Assembly (NCBI GenBank): GCA_019114885.1
Contig: DXEQ01000065.1
Coordinates: 1-33,850, forward strand
Direction of reading: 5' to 3'
Length of the DNA: 33,850 nt
Source: Candidatus Anaerobutyricum stercoripullorum
GTDB taxonomy: Bacteria; Bacillota; Clostridia; Lachnospirales; Lachnospiraceae
Shown here: piece by piece, positions 10,777-19,589 of the stretch
How the letters are laid out: each line of letters begins with the position of its first letter
Position numbering within the stretch: the stretch's first letter is position 1
The notes under the pieces: model-generated
Told to the model about the DNA's origin: nothing
Database searches by the model: none
The model's input: only the letters and a program-made list of their open reading frames with translations
Made by a program: the position numbers and the translations under genes

Positions 10777-12213
10777 ATGATGAAATCTATTGTAGAAGAA
10801 AAGCTGGTATCTTTCAAGACCCTGGAGCAAAAAGTTTTTGCTTATGTTTGCGAGCTGGGCAGGCTGATCACCCAGACGATACTGGAAAACTATGATGATG
10901 AGCTGGCAAGGGATCGGGATAAAAAAGCATACAGAGACAAGGGAAAGCGGGATACTTCCATCAAGACCGTATATGGGGAGGTTGAATACTCCCGGAGGGT
11001 CTATCGGACAGAGTCTGAGGATGGCAAAGCGGCACATGTTTACCTGTTGGATCAGGCAATGCAGATGGAAAAGATCGGGCTGATCTCCACAAACCTTGCA
11101 GAAAAGATCGCCCTGACCGTAACGGAGGCCCCTTATCGCGTCAGCGCGGATGTGATAAGCGATACCTGCGGCCAGACGATCAGCCATGGAGGTGTCTGGA
11201 ACCTGATGCAGCGGCTGGGAGAACGGATCAGCAAAGAAGAAGAATACGCGGTACAGCAGATGGAAACAGGCCGGGCGGAAGGGACAAAGGCAATCGGGAT
11301 CCTTTTTGAAGAAATGGATGGCGTATGGCTGCGGATGCAGGATCCCAGCCATAAGAAGGCTCCGAAACAGGAAATGAAGGTTTTTACGATGTATGAAGGA
11401 TGGGACGCGGACAACACCCAAAGGAGCCGCCTGGTAAACAAGAAGATGCTGGCCGGGATGGAGAAAAGCGGCCTGTTCCACCAAAAACGGGAAGCGTTGA
11501 TTGAAAAGGTCTATGATGCGGATGAGATCCAGCAGCGTATCCTGAACGGAGATGGAGGAAGCTGGATCAAAGAGGCATATGATCCAGAAGTGATCTTCCA
11601 GCTGGACCGGTTTCATATCTATAAGGAGATCAAAGGGAAGATCCGGGATGCAGAAGCCCAGGAACGGATCAAAGAGCTTCTGGAGAAGAAGGAAGTAGAT
11701 AAGATGCTGGAATATATCCGGATCTACGCGGACAGTATAGAAAGCGATGATGCAGCAGAGAAAGGAAGCGAAAAGGCGAGAGAATTGTACCAGTATCTCT
11801 GGAATAACCGGGAAGGACTCCTGCCGTATCAGGAGAGAGGGATAGAACTTCCGGAAGCCGGGGAAGGGATCGTCTATAAAAATATGGGGGTACAGGAAAA
11901 TCAGAACTGTACGGCAATCACGTTGCGGATGAAGCACCGGAGGATGAGATGGTCTGTCAATGGCGCGAATAACATGGCGAAGGCACTATACCGGAAAGAA
12001 AACCGGGAACTGATCGATACGATAGAACGATATACGGATGGCGTGGTATTTACCATGGGTATGGAAGAGATCGTCAAGACGCTGAGCGCGGCAAAAGCAC
12101 CAAAGAAAGACGGGAAAGGGGATCCGTATGTGGATATCATCACGCACCATATGCCGCTCCTGGACGCGATGCGGACAGCATCGAGAAAAGCCTTTGAAAG
12201 AGCGTTCTGCTAA
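10777..12213 (+). CDS. ISLre2-family (UPF0236) transposase
   Basis: The 478-residue protein matches the UPF0236/ISLre2 pattern. The N-terminal region has YDDELARDRDKKAYRDKGKRDTSIKTVYGEVEYSRRVY. Next comes a middle block with TISHGGVW. The RNase-H-like core carries acidic residues in EEMDGVWLRMQ, NGDGGSWIKEAYDPE and FQLDRFHIYKEI. The C-terminal block contains ITLRMKHRRMRWSVNGANNMAKAL. The start was set at ATG 10777 (MMKSIVEEK), directly after AAAGGAGACTGC; an earlier in-frame TTG at 10747 has no ribosome binding site. The frame is uninterrupted and of full family length, so the protein may be active. Another ATG immediately follows at 10780. Confidence 0.93.
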   Translation: MMKSIVEEKLVSFKTLEQKVFAYVCELGRLITQTILENYDDELARDRDKKAYRDKGKRDTSIKTVYGEVEYSRRVYRTESEDGKAAHVYLLDQAMQMEKIGLISTNLAEKIALTVTEAPYRVSADVISDTCGQTISHGGVWNLMQRLGERISKEEEYAVQQMETGRAEGTKAIGILFEEMDGVWLRMQDPSHKKAPKQEMKVFTMYEGWDADNTQRSRLVNKKMLAGMEKSGLFHQKREALIEKVYDADEIQQRILNGDGGSWIKEAYDPEVIFQLDRFHIYKEIKGKIRDAEAQERIKELLEKKEVDKMLEYIRIYADSIESDDAAEKGSEKARELYQYLWNNREGLLPYQERGIELPEAGEGIVYKNMGVQENQNCTAITLRMKHRRMRWSVNGANNMAKALYRKENRELIDTIERYTDGVVFTMGMEEIVKTLSAAKAPKKDGKGDPYVDIITHHMPLLDAMRTASRKAFERAFC

Positions 12214-16179: not shown

Positions 16180-18621
16180 TTATTTGATATCCATATCTTT
16201 CATCATCCGCTGTACCGTATCGCGAATCTGTTTTTTCAGGAAGATCTCCTGGAAGGATTCTTCATACGGCGGATAAGCGATGCCGAATTCGGTGACGATA
16301 CCGGTGATCAGATCGTGGCCCGTCACGTCAAAGGCAGGATTATATACTTTTACGCCGGGAGCGGTCATTGGCTTTTCATACCACATGTCAGTGACCTCTT
16401 CCGGTTTTCTCTGTTCAATGACAATGTCGTCTCCGGTGGCGGTGGACATGTCGATGGTGGACGTCGGCGCACACACATAGAACGGCACGCCGTAACGTTT
16501 CGCCGCCAGGGCGGCCATGGAAGTGCCAATCTTATTGGCGGTATCGCCGTTTTTTGCCACACGGTCACAACCCACAAACACAGCCTGAATCTTTCCTTCC
16601 CGCATGAGGGAGGCTGACATGTTGTCGCACAGAAGAGTCACGTCCAGACCGGCGCTGAATAGTTCAAAGCTGGTAAGTCTCGCACCCTGCAAAAGGGGTC
16701 TTGTCTCGTCACAATATACTTTAAAATGATAGCCCTTTTCCTGTCCCAGATACATCGGGGCGGTGGCGGTGCCGTATTTTACGGTGGCCAGCTGACCGGC
16801 GTTACAGTGGGTCAGGAGACCGTCGCCCGGTTTTACGAGAGAAAGACCGTACTTTCCGATGGACTGGCAGACCAGAATATCTTCCTCCCGGATGGCCAGA
16901 GCCTCGTCATGAAGGGCGGCCACGATCTGCGCCACGGAATCGCCCTTGTGGGCGAGCACCACATTTTCCATGCGCTGAAGCGCCCAGGAGAGATTAACTG
17001 CCGTCGGCCGGGACGAATTGAGGTAGGCGGAAGCCTCCCGGAAGCGGCGCAGGAATTCCTCGTAGTCGGTCACAGGCCGTCCTGCAGAAGCAGTCTGCCC
17101 GGTGGCCGTCTGTCCCGCCGAAGCTGCCTGCCCGGAAGCGTCGGCTGTACCCTCCGCGATCTCTCTGGCGGCCAGATAGATGCCGATGGCCGCCGCCACG
17201 CCGATGGCCGGGGCGCCCCGCACTTTCAGCAGATAGATGGCGTCCCAGATGTCCTCCTGCGCGGTGAGAGAAAGAATCTCAATGCGGGAAGGGAGCTTTG
17301 TCTGATCGATGATGACCAGCGCGTGCTGTTCATCGTCAAGAGCTACGGTATCATAATCAAGGATCGTCTTTTTCGGGCCGATGAGAGGATTGTCCGGTTC
17401 GATGGCGCGGATGGCGTCCTCCATGGCACGGTAATAATCGTTGGCTGTCTGGAACTGCCGCTGATGCAGAATCAGGTCTTTGGCGAAAGTGAGAAGAATC
17501 TTCTCCGCGGAGGCCCGCTTCGCCATATCTTCAATGACGGTGATGTCCTTGTTGTGGGCCATACCTACAATCCGGCGGATACATTCCGTGCCGGCGTACC
17601 CGGCGGTATCCGCCATAATGTCCGCCAGATAGGACTGTTTAAATTCTTCGGATCTGGCCAGAGGTTCCGTCACCTGCTCGTCGTAAAGACGGCAGAACTT
17701 CTCCTTAAACAGATCGACGATCTCCAGGATGGCGCACATACACCAGCCGCAGAAGCGGGCGCGCTCTGCCGGAGCGTCGATAGTGGCATTGCCGTTTGCC
17801 CATGCAAAGAAGAGGTTGGCGATCACATTTCCTATGTCATAACCCATAGGGCCGAAGAACGCGAACTCCGGATCGAACACAAAGGTGTGGTCTTTGTTGA
17901 TAAAGACGGAACCGGTGTGCAGATCTCCGTGAATCAGCGACTGGGCGTGGTTCATAAAACGGAACTTGAGCCGTGCCACCTCTGCCCGCAGTTCTTCATC
18001 GCCGTAGATCTCCCGCTCCACAAAATCTCTGACCGGCGGAAACACATCGTTCCTCCCGTTATAATCAAGAAGCGGCTCGCCGAAGACCAGATTCTCCGTG
18101 ATGTCGCAAAGCTCCGGATTGGTGAACTCCCGCACCAGCGCCTTCCTCTTCTGATGGTCCATGACGATATCGGTGGTCATCAGCAGACTGTTCACAAGAA
18201 ATGTACTGATCTGCTCAGGAAATTTCGGATAGATCTCATGGTGAATCAGCCCGGTGCGCATCATGGTGTGCCCGATCATATCTTCCATGATCATGGCGCA
18301 CATCACACCGTCGTACAGGTACACTTCCGGCACCAGGCCCGGACACAGCGCGCCCTGCAGCTTCAAAATACTGGCCTCGATCCGTCCCCGGTCTGTGGTC
18401 AGCGTCATTTTATCGGAAATCCGCAGATGCTCCCCCGCCTGCTTGACGATGATGGAGCGGCCGCTTCGTTCATCCCATACCCGGAAAACATAATTCAGAT
18501 TCCCATCGCCGATCTCCTTGCAGGCAAGCGGCGCGTCCGCGTCAAAATACGAAAGCTTCGCCTGCACGTAATCGATGACGTCCGGTTCTTTCATCAGAAA
18601 ATAAGTATTAAAATCAGACAA
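16180..18621 (-). CDS. MtnK-MtnA fusion: methylthioribose kinase plus methylthioribose-1-phosphate isomerase
   Basis: A single 813-residue frame holds two methionine-salvage enzymes. Residues 1-420 match 5-methylthioribose kinase: EIGDGNLNYVF near 35, the catalytic loop LIHGDLHTGS (D233), and the metal site FDPEFAFFGPMGYDIGN. Residues 440-813 match S-methyl-5-thioribose-1-phosphate isomerase: KVRGAPAIGVAAA, LTHCNAGQLAT (C606), GCDRVAKNGDTANKIGT (D686). The protein should phosphorylate methylthioribose with ATP and then convert the product to methylthioribulose-1-phosphate. The start is TTG at 18621, 7 nt after GGGGGAG; the frame is open to 18759 but runs into repeat DNA, and ATG 18591 lacks a ribosome site. 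In Bacillus these are separate adjacent genes. The MtnA part carries a low-complexity insert (Ala/Gly/Thr/Gln, about 17068-17150). No SAM riboswitch was seen upstream. Confidence 0.9.
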   Translation of the reverse strand: MSDFNTYFLMKEPDVIDYVQAKLSYFDADAPLACKEIGDGNLNYVFRVWDERSGRSIIVKQAGEHLRISDKMTLTTDRGRIEASILKLQGALCPGLVPEVYLYDGVMCAMIMEDMIGHTMMRTGLIHHEIYPKFPEQISTFLVNSLLMTTDIVMDHQKRKALVREFTNPELCDITENLVFGEPLLDYNGRNDVFPPVRDFVEREIYGDEELRAEVARLKFRFMNHAQSLIHGDLHTGSVFINKDHTFVFDPEFAFFGPMGYDIGNVIANLFFAWANGNATIDAPAERARFCGWCMCAILEIVDLFKEKFCRLYDEQVTEPLARSEEFKQSYLADIMADTAGYAGTECIRRIVGMAHNKDITVIEDMAKRASAEKILLTFAKDLILHQRQFQTANDYYRAMEDAIRAIEPDNPLIGPKKTILDYDTVALDDEQHALVIIDQTKLPSRIEILSLTAQEDIWDAIYLLKVRGAPAIGVAAAIGIYLAAREIAEGTADASGQAASAGQTATGQTASAGRPVTDYEEFLRRFREASAYLNSSRPTAVNLSWALQRMENVVLAHKGDSVAQIVAALHDEALAIREEDILVCQSIGKYGLSLVKPGDGLLTHCNAGQLATVKYGTATAPMYLGQEKGYHFKVYCDETRPLLQGARLTSFELFSAGLDVTLLCDNMSASLMREGKIQAVFVGCDRVAKNGDTANKIGTSMAALAAKRYGVPFYVCAPTSTIDMSTATGDDIVIEQRKPEEVTDMWYEKPMTAPGVKVYNPAFDVTGHDLITGIVTEFGIAYPPYEESFQEIFLKKQIRDTVQRMMKDMDIK

Positions 18622-18729: not shown

Positions 18730-18747
18730 GTTACTGTTTACACAGTG
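18730..18747 (-). repeat. Degenerate end fragment of the palindromic element
   Basis: These 18 bases match the reverse complement of the right end of the element at 18768-18905 with one mismatch, then similarity fades. It is probably the remnant of another copy. Confidence 0.45.
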
Positions 18748-18767
18748 CCCGGCAATCATCTGTTATT

Positions 18768-18905
18768 ATGTTACTGTTCACTCGCCGAGCCACGCACTGG
18801 CTGCGTGGCTGCGGACCAATATGATTCAGCCGGCGATTTGGCCTTCGCGAAGCGAATTAGGATGCCAAATCGCATCGTTACTGGTCACTGTGTGAACAGT
18901 AACAT
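18768..18905. mobile_element. MITE-like palindromic repeat element, full copy
   Basis: The 138-bp element begins with ATGTTACTGTTCAC (18768-18781) and ends with its perfect reverse complement (18892-18905). Inside are two strong stem-loops: AGCCACGCA/TGCGTGGCT (18788-18810) and GCGATTTGGC/GCCAAATCGC (18833-18873). It has no coding capacity. A partial second copy lies 146 bp downstream, showing that it is a dispersed repeat. I see no convincing target duplication. It would be transcribed as part of the mtnKA leader. Confidence 0.8.
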
Positions 18906-18909
18906 TATT

Positions 18910-18938
18910 ATTATAAAATAGCTCCCCGCGAAAAACAA
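18910..18938 (-). promoter_or_regulatory. Probable promoter of the mtnKA gene
   Basis: On the minus strand TTGTTT (18938-18933) and TATAAT (18915-18910) are 17 nt apart. The transcript would include the whole palindromic element in a leader of roughly 280 nt. Confidence 0.5.
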
Positions 18939-18966
18939 TGAAAAAACCGGTAGTCTGTAGTATAAT
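18938..18966 (+). promoter_or_regulatory. Probable promoter of the Mrr-like nuclease gene
   Basis: ATGAAA (18938-18943) and TATAAT (18961-18966) are 17 nt apart. It is back to back with the mtnKA promoter. The truncated palindromic repeat lies between it and the gene, so it forms the leader. Confidence 0.55.
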
Positions 18967-18974
18967 TAGTTGAT

Positions 18975-19036
18975 ATGTTACTGTTCACTCCCCGAGCCAC
19001 GCACTGGCTGCGTGGCTGCGGACCAACATGATACAG
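18975..19036 (+). repeat. Truncated second copy of the palindromic element
   Basis: These 62 bases match 18768-18829 at 59 positions, in the same orientation, and keep the AGCCACGCA/TGCGTGGCT stem-loop. The copy ends just before the ribosome binding site of the next gene, and the second stem-loop and right terminal repeat are missing. Confidence 0.85.
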
Positions 19037-19052
19037 AGGAGCGGAGGAACTT

Positions 19053-19589
19053 ATGAGAGGATTTGACATCGTAACGGGAATACTGGCAGCGGCGGTTCTG
19101 ACCGCTTACACAAAAGGATATCTGCTTTACACGGCGGGGAGGGGAGAGGAGTGCGTCTTTTATACGCTGCTCACCGCCATCGGGCTTTTGATTCTGGTCC
19201 GCCGGCTCATCAGCCGCCGGTACCTGCACATGTCCATGCGGAAGGTGGACCGGCTCAACGGCCGGGCTTTTGAGAAATATCTGCGGGCCCAGTTCAGACA
19301 TCTGGGCTACCGGGTCACCCTCACCGATCTCAGCCACGATTACGGCGCGGACCTGATCCTACGCCGCCACGGAGAGAAAATTGTGGTGCAGGCAAAACGA
19401 TACGAGAAAAATGTGGGAATCGCGGCGGTGCAGGAGGCGGTGGGCTCCGTGGCCTACTATGACGCGGACCGGGCCATGGTGGTCACCAACAGCGGCTTTA
19501 CCAAAAGCGCCAGAAACCTCGCCCGGCAGAACGAAGTGGAACTGTGGGGACGCTATGACATCCAGAAAAAGTTCCGGATCCGGGAGTGA
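19053..19589 (+). CDS. Membrane-anchored Mrr-like (restriction endonuclease-fold) protein
   Basis: The 178-residue protein begins with two hydrophobic segments (about residues 5-23 and 36-52) and continues with an Mrr_cat-type nuclease domain (about 62-178). LNGRAFEKYLRAQFRHLGYRV opens the domain. The catalytic set appears as D100 in DYGADLIL followed by Q113-A-K115 (VVQAKRY), the D...QxK form of the PD-(D/E)xK site. GFTKSARNLARQNEVELWGRYDI closes it. The family cuts DNA, in some cases modified DNA; the membrane segments suggest action at the envelope. The start follows GAGCGGAGGAACTT. No methyltransferase or other restriction genes are nearby, so a classical restriction-modification pair is unlikely here. 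Confidence 0.85.
   Translation: MRGFDIVTGILAAAVLTAYTKGYLLYTAGRGEECVFYTLLTAIGLLILVRRLISRRYLHMSMRKVDRLNGRAFEKYLRAQFRHLGYRVTLTDLSHDYGADLILRRHGEKIVVQAKRYEKNVGIAAVQEAVGSVAYYDADRAMVVTNSGFTKSARNLARQNEVELWGRYDIQKKFRIRE

Follow-up and report, generated by a model that had tools for sequence, protein, structure and literature searches.

The 33,850-bp stretch of DNA analysed here (the window) carries the mtnK-mtnA and Mrr-like genes in divergent orientation. The methionine-salvage proteins MtnK (kinase fold) and MtnA (IF-2B fold) share a single fused frame of about 815 aa on the minus strand (16180-18621), with its start placed at the TTG of TTGTCTGAT, which is conserved in relatives; close homologues form long open frames (790-884 aa) in at least 11 relatives within the genus. 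The plus-strand gene (19053-19589) encodes an Mrr-like protein with a restriction-endonuclease fold (PF04471, E 2e-30). A promoter of the form ATGAAA-17-TATAAT was predicted for the Mrr-like gene (18938-18966, plus strand) and is conserved in relatives. The candidate mtnKA promoter, TTGTTT-17-TATAAT (18910-18938, minus strand), was recognized by eye below the promoter-prediction threshold and is conserved in three related species (G020, G022, and G009).

Three copies of one repeat lie in this region: a full-length element (18770-18903), a second copy without its right half (18977-19036), and a solo palindrome (18730-18756). The initial annotation had read the first two as leaders of mtnKA and of the Mrr-like gene, and their placement agrees with this: with both predicted promoters sitting between them, the copies begin close to the transcription starts predicted for their respective genes. 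By placement, the full element would start at about +1 of mtnKA and lengthen its leader to roughly 280 nt, and the truncated copy would form the leader of the Mrr-like gene. The two copies would then be transcribed as structured leader RNA and may modulate both genes. No terminator-like site was predicted at the window copy. Directly after the truncated copy comes the Mrr-like gene's ribosome-binding site (AGGAGCGGAGG, 19030-19052); since AGGAG also occurs within the family linker TTCAGGAGTG, the element may have supplied that site.

Ends and internal parts of the window copy

The full-length element is 134 bp long, lies on the plus strand, and belongs to structural type I (described below). 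Its ends were set by a family alignment (A1), by the statistics of target-site duplications (TSDs), and by empty sites in G020, G022, and G009. Read on the plus strand, it consists of the left terminal inverted repeat (TIR) GTTACTGTTCAC (12 bp, 18770-18781), internal hairpin 1 (CCGAGCCACGCACTGGCTGCGTGGCTGCGG, 18785-18814), a linker, internal hairpin 2 (GCGATTTGGC...GCCAAATCGC with nested TTCGCGAAGCGAA, 18833-18873), the trinucleotide ATC, and a 27-bp near-palindrome of no strand, GTTACTGGTCAC-TGT-GTGAACAGTAAC (18877-18903). The right TIR (12 bp, 18892-18903, minus strand) reads GTGAACAGTAAC on the plus strand. Both hairpins were identified by folding; hairpin 1 covaries across the family, as does the inner stem of hairpin 2. 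The right-end near-palindrome has the same form as the stand-alone solos of relatives.

The region 18768-18905 is far more foldable than its shuffles (z = -7.2), and the 12-bp arm occurs nine times in the window with up to two mismatches, against 1.5 expected; none of 100 shuffles reached nine. GC content is 54.5% in the element and 52% in the window. The initial annotation had described a 138-bp element with 14-bp TIRs. Perfect 14-bp inverted ends and internal hairpins are indeed present at 18768-18905, but relatives and family comparison place the true ends at 18770 and 18903, with 134 bp and 12-bp TIRs; the extra length arose because the outer AT/AT is part of an 8-bp target duplication. 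The truncated copy was found where it had been reported and in the same orientation on the plus strand (57 of its first 60 bases identical; 95% identity over 63 bp). What had been taken for an inverted end fragment at 18730 is instead a complete, though degraded, 27-bp solo palindrome of no strand, GTTACTGTTTAC-ACA-GTGCCCGGCAAT, flanked by a weak possible TSD (CATTTGCC / CATCTGTT, 5 of 8 positions).

Target duplication and empty sites

The element is flanked by 8-bp copies of its target, GTTATTAT on the left (18762-18769) and ATTATTAT on the right (18904-18911), which differ at one position. In G020, G022, and G009, both divergent promoters and both genes are kept and the element is absent. 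On the mtnK strand, G022 has ATAATAAC in single copy, where the window has ATAATAAT-element-ATAATAAC; likewise, TTTTATAATAATAACAATAC of G022 corresponds to TTTTATAATAATAAT-element-ATAATAACAGATG of the window. On this comparison of orthologous DNA, the window element is shown to be an insertion, missing from the same promoter region of three related species. A possible remnant of the truncated copy in G022, TGTATCATG...GTGTGAACA, is only suggestive.

Across the family, element ends are sharp. Perfect 8-bp TSDs flanked 17 of 100 solos, where shuffles averaged 0.024 and never exceeded 1, and 14 of 41 full copies also had a perfect one; 28 of the 100 solos had an 8-bp TSD with no more than one mismatch, against 0.06 in shuffles. 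Solo flanks showed no perfect duplication at 9 or 10 bp, and lengths other than 8 bp gave next to nothing. Target duplications, which the initial annotation had envisaged, are thus present at 8 bp, well above shuffles, with the target held in single copy by G022.

Copies in the source genome and distribution of the family

Within the source genome (2.33 Mb in 320 contigs, 89.6% completeness) are one full copy, one truncated copy, and two further partial copies, the latter located in the pyrH/frr gap (L003) and the folD/ftsK gap (L004; gene names read from translated ORFs). Stand-alone palindromes lie on contigs C38, C57, and C172, and an eroded palindrome of 20 bp lies on contig C11. The genome-wide search thus disposed of the possibility, raised initially, that there were no other copies, as partial copies and several solos exist beyond this locus. 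Palindromes were also found at unrelated, mostly intergenic sites in G020, G009, G022, and G007, and a reversed-control palindrome pattern had no matches in these related genomes. G007 showed only solos in the DNA examined, with 13 exact arms.

A pattern scan of 84,980 species (TTACTGKTCACN{2,8}GTGAACAGTAA) matched at least 120 stretches; those among the matches listed belonged to Lachnospiraceae or relatives, plus Clostridia/Eubacteriales metagenome-assembled genomes (MAGs). Carriers among the matches listed were Anaerobium, Murimonas, Eisenbergiella, Acetatifactor, Blautia (including Blautia parvula), and Clostridium fessum. Exact arms per genome numbered 138 in the CAMWUN01 MAG, 118 in C. 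fessum, 105 in C64_1, 93 in Murimonas, 47 in Anaerobium, 42 in B. parvula, and 7 in Eisenbergiella tayi; the reversed-arm control gave 0-2 per genome, against 42-138 arms in the high-copy carriers. Among 242 further Clostridia genomes, sampled evenly at 90% completeness and including nine of the same family, none had a match at one mismatch or fewer; carriage is therefore patchy. There was one match among viral contigs and none among plasmids or phages, and the element is therefore essentially chromosomal.

Conserved architecture and covariation

Two structural types share the ends GTTACTGTTCAC, with full copies of 110-160 bp overall. In type I (132-134 bp; the window, Eisenbergiella, C64_1, and C. 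fessum), a linker with the pattern GTAAGAAAnTGATTCAGGAG joins two hairpins. Type II (mostly 134-160 bp; Murimonas, Anaerobium, and B. parvula) has a CGCGAGGTGTTTT-hairpin-AAAATCCCGAG unit and a second long hairpin. Several B. parvula elements (L205, L210, L212, L217, and L222) are capped by a 47-bp variant of the terminal palindrome (GTTACTATTCACAGCCCTGCAAAAAGCGCAGTTCTGTGAACAGTAAC). A divergent subfamily of C. fessum with ends GTAACTGTTCAG (L245-L363) has the same 133-bp architecture, and this subfamily occurs in Murimonas too, as a 27-bp solo and as 132-bp full copies. In one locus (L091:1150-1423), two copies stand in perfect tandem with the 8-bp AAGCTGAC at each boundary and a period of 141 (133 + 8), an arrangement that unequal exchange, or a new insertion into the duplication, could produce.

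The stems covary strongly in both types. In type I, 94.9% of cells were paired (score 0.406 vs 0.129), and in type II, 96.1% were paired vs 85% when shuffled (score 0.354 vs 0.141); none of 500 shuffles reached the value of either type, and slid controls were exceeded too. These counts omit the outer stem of hairpin 2, a stem that alignment A1 misplaces between subgroups; TIR pairing in the same alignment was 96.7% of cells. At the level of the alignments, covariation shows conserved pairing and not RNA function, because templated correction between arms can also maintain perfect hairpins. The covariance models of Rfam 15 had no match over the window element or in eight loci.

Size series and origin of the solos

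In 1.19 Mb of C. fessum DNA, 33 of 34 full copies were exactly 133 bp; the full copies fall into subfamilies as little as about 35% identical, one of them with the ends given above for the divergent group. Short forms of 30 bp (eight copies), 27 bp (one), and 61 bp (two), plus 63, 50, and 40 bp, all had 8-bp duplications with no more than one mismatch. The junctions of the 40-, 50-, 61-, and 63-bp derivatives carry 4-5 bp of microhomology, except in one 61-bp copy with a substitution. Solos (27-31 bp) match a deletion between 7-bp GTTACTG direct repeats, one forming the left end and the other lying next to the right end. Some arm variants are specific to a genome, such as the GGGCAC arms of B. 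parvula and C. fessum, and there the solos and the full copies have them in common. One palindrome upstream of htpG measures 27 bp in G020 but 20 bp at the orthologous position in G009.

Because the deletion derivatives have microhomology junctions, solos are best read as slippage footprints of full elements. The left-end GTTACTGTTCAC and the right-subterminal GTTACTGGTCAC would form a direct repeat inside the element, and replication slippage or hairpin-aided deletion between these repeats would leave the 27-31-bp palindrome, the commonest short form; the support for both steps is good. No site was found where one strain has the full-length element and a second strain the solo; this reading therefore rests on the junctions and the shared variants.

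Taken together, the 134-bp sequence is very probably one copy of a non-coding, MITE-like mobile family of Lachnospiraceae, with an 8-bp TSD, a length of about 133 or 140-160 bp, conserved hairpins, putative movement in trans by a DDE enzyme, solos probably produced by slippage, and copies that are candidate leaders. Against this stand the single mismatch in the element's own duplication and the compensatory pairing, which could stem from self-correction of DNA hairpins and not from selection on folded RNA or DNA. In addition, the two 61-bp copies of C. fessum have the same junction but sit at different targets, and short forms could therefore also transpose.

A much less probable reading makes the 27-bp palindrome the mobile unit. 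The enzyme would then act either on the hairpin once extruded or on a pair of inverted sites separated by 3 bp, and the longer elements would be palindromes that had gained cargo. It would account for the perfect 8-bp TSDs at solos, for the right-end spacing fixed at 27 bp in most lineages (also in the divergent subfamily), and for genus members with only solos in the DNA examined, such as G007. It fits poorly with the microhomology at derivative junctions and with the 34 long copies to 9 solos in C. fessum. An ordinary DDE synapse would also be cramped, with two 12-bp ends packed into 27 bp.

Search for a mobilizing enzyme

The presence of TIRs and a target duplication points to staggered cutting, and a DDE-type transposase acting in trans would have inserted the window element. 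Against the preferred reading of a trans-mobilized MITE, about 3 Mb of carrier DNA yielded neither an autonomous relative nor a transposase with matching ends; likewise, no stretch of 0.5-7 kb that combined GT[TA]AC ends with a perfect duplication of 8 bp was present in 1.8 Mb plus the 1.19 Mb of C. fessum (partly overlapping).

Carriage was compared with the Y1/RAYT, IS6, IS256, and ISL3 transposase families, and none of the four tracked the element. IS6 was rejected as the source, its transposase (DDE_Tnp_IS240) occurring in 1 of 10 genomes, as were IS256 and ISL3, whose transposases were absent from three and four of six high-copy genomes, respectively. The window itself contains an ISLre2-type transposase gene (10786-12213; UPF0236, PF06782), which has no GTTACTG ends beside it and no obvious terminal repeats and is unrelated to the element. 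A pair of arms at IS-like spacing in Murimonas (1.85 kb) turned out to be a single element interrupted by an unrelated IS: at L265:2100-3980, a transposase-bearing IS with terminal repeats CAATGTCATTTAGATAA lies inside one element copy.

REPINs, too, are short intergenic palindromes that have paired arms, lack an ORF, and occur in many copies (PMC3116915), and mobilization of REP/REPIN-like palindromes by a Y1 (RAYT) transposase was considered. The distribution of the enzyme makes this very improbable, since Y1_Tnp (PF01797) is absent from the palindrome carriers G000 (89.6% complete) and G007 and is most numerous in G005, G017, and G003, genomes without palindromes; enzyme and palindromes are anti-correlated. 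The family has 8-bp TSDs, which are not expected of IS200/IS605-type Y1 transposition.

More speculatively, and with a small chance of being right, a structured family kept vertically could owe its movement to a non-mobile DDE transposase encoded by the host, one recognizing a folded hairpin. If true, this would be a DDE counterpart of the RAYT-REPIN arrangement and would explain why the 133-bp architecture is fixed in unrelated sequences and covaries, why autonomous copies are lacking, and why the 27-bp minimal form is mobile or persists.

Genomic context

Only 11 of 117 elements lay within ORFs, though ORFs of at least 100 aa cover 85% of the DNA. Divergent gaps were mildly enriched, at 31 of 87 vs 83 of 382 gaps (crude gene calls; gap length uncontrolled). 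This mild excess, the palindromic arms near promoters, and a few terminator-like copies (L038 and L041) could suggest a repeated transcription-factor operator or an intrinsic terminator and not a mobile element. Such an explanation is highly unlikely in view of the 8-bp TSDs, the empty sites, and the sharp-ended 133-bp full copies, and the genes adjoining copies are unrelated and the window copy has nothing resembling a terminator. A local duplication peculiar to this locus, suggested by three copies within 310 bp, can practically be dismissed, as copies occur at further sites in this genome and also outside the genus, similarity ends at the element boundaries, and the flanks differ.

Significance and comparison with known repeats

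Lachnospiraceae are among the dominant human gut bacteria. The family described here reaches more than 100 arms per genome, mostly intergenic and often near promoters, and its unrecognized copies will confound the annotation of operators, terminators, and small RNAs. The 8-bp duplications, size series, and empty sites together offer a clean system for promoter-proximal DNA reshaping in gut Firmicutes. The puzzle is an apparently mobile family whose transposase was not found among the families tested.

The MITE-like reading of the initial annotation has held up: the elements are non-coding, 110-160 bp long, dispersed, and multicopy; they end in TIRs, have target duplications of 8 bp, and show empty sites at orthologous positions. 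A literature search by arm sequence and topic, with most subscription journals outside it, found no description of the repeat family, and a 2024 review of MITEs mentions neither Clostridia nor Lachnospiraceae (PMC10969869). Judged by these features, the family appears to be of the MITE kind, with most of its defining features, and previously undescribed within the searchable literature. Like prokaryotic MITEs (PMC10969869), the elements are under 500 bp, non-coding, intergenic, and multicopy, with TIRs and flanking direct repeats; their transcripts would fold, and degenerate short relics occur. Unlike them, the family has no parental IS found, leaves 27-31-bp palindromic collapse products, holds a covarying architecture across genera, and is not AT-rich (54.5% GC).

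The BOX and RUP repeats of Streptococcus pneumoniae are similar as Firmicute intergenic repeats with TIRs, TSDs, hairpins, and about 100 copies per genome (PMC3049150). BOX is modular with repeated boxB units, whereas the architecture here differs, the two being set apart by the published description (PMC3049150). Pneumococcal repeats are over-represented between convergent genes (PMC3049150), whereas the Lachnospiraceae element favours divergent gaps, by crude gene calls. REPINs and RAYTs (PMC3116915) offer another parallel, in that paired inverted palindromes form hairpins and are moved in trans, with single palindromes as relics. The present family differs from them in its 8-bp TSD, its conserved internal hairpins, and its lack of association with Y1.

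Tn10-type nearly precise excision, in which deletion between short direct repeats inside the TIRs leaves a short palindromic footprint, is a parallel to the solos. The likeness lies in that palindromic footprint; here, the process, as deduced from the derivatives, would be a frequent outcome in the evolution of a MITE.
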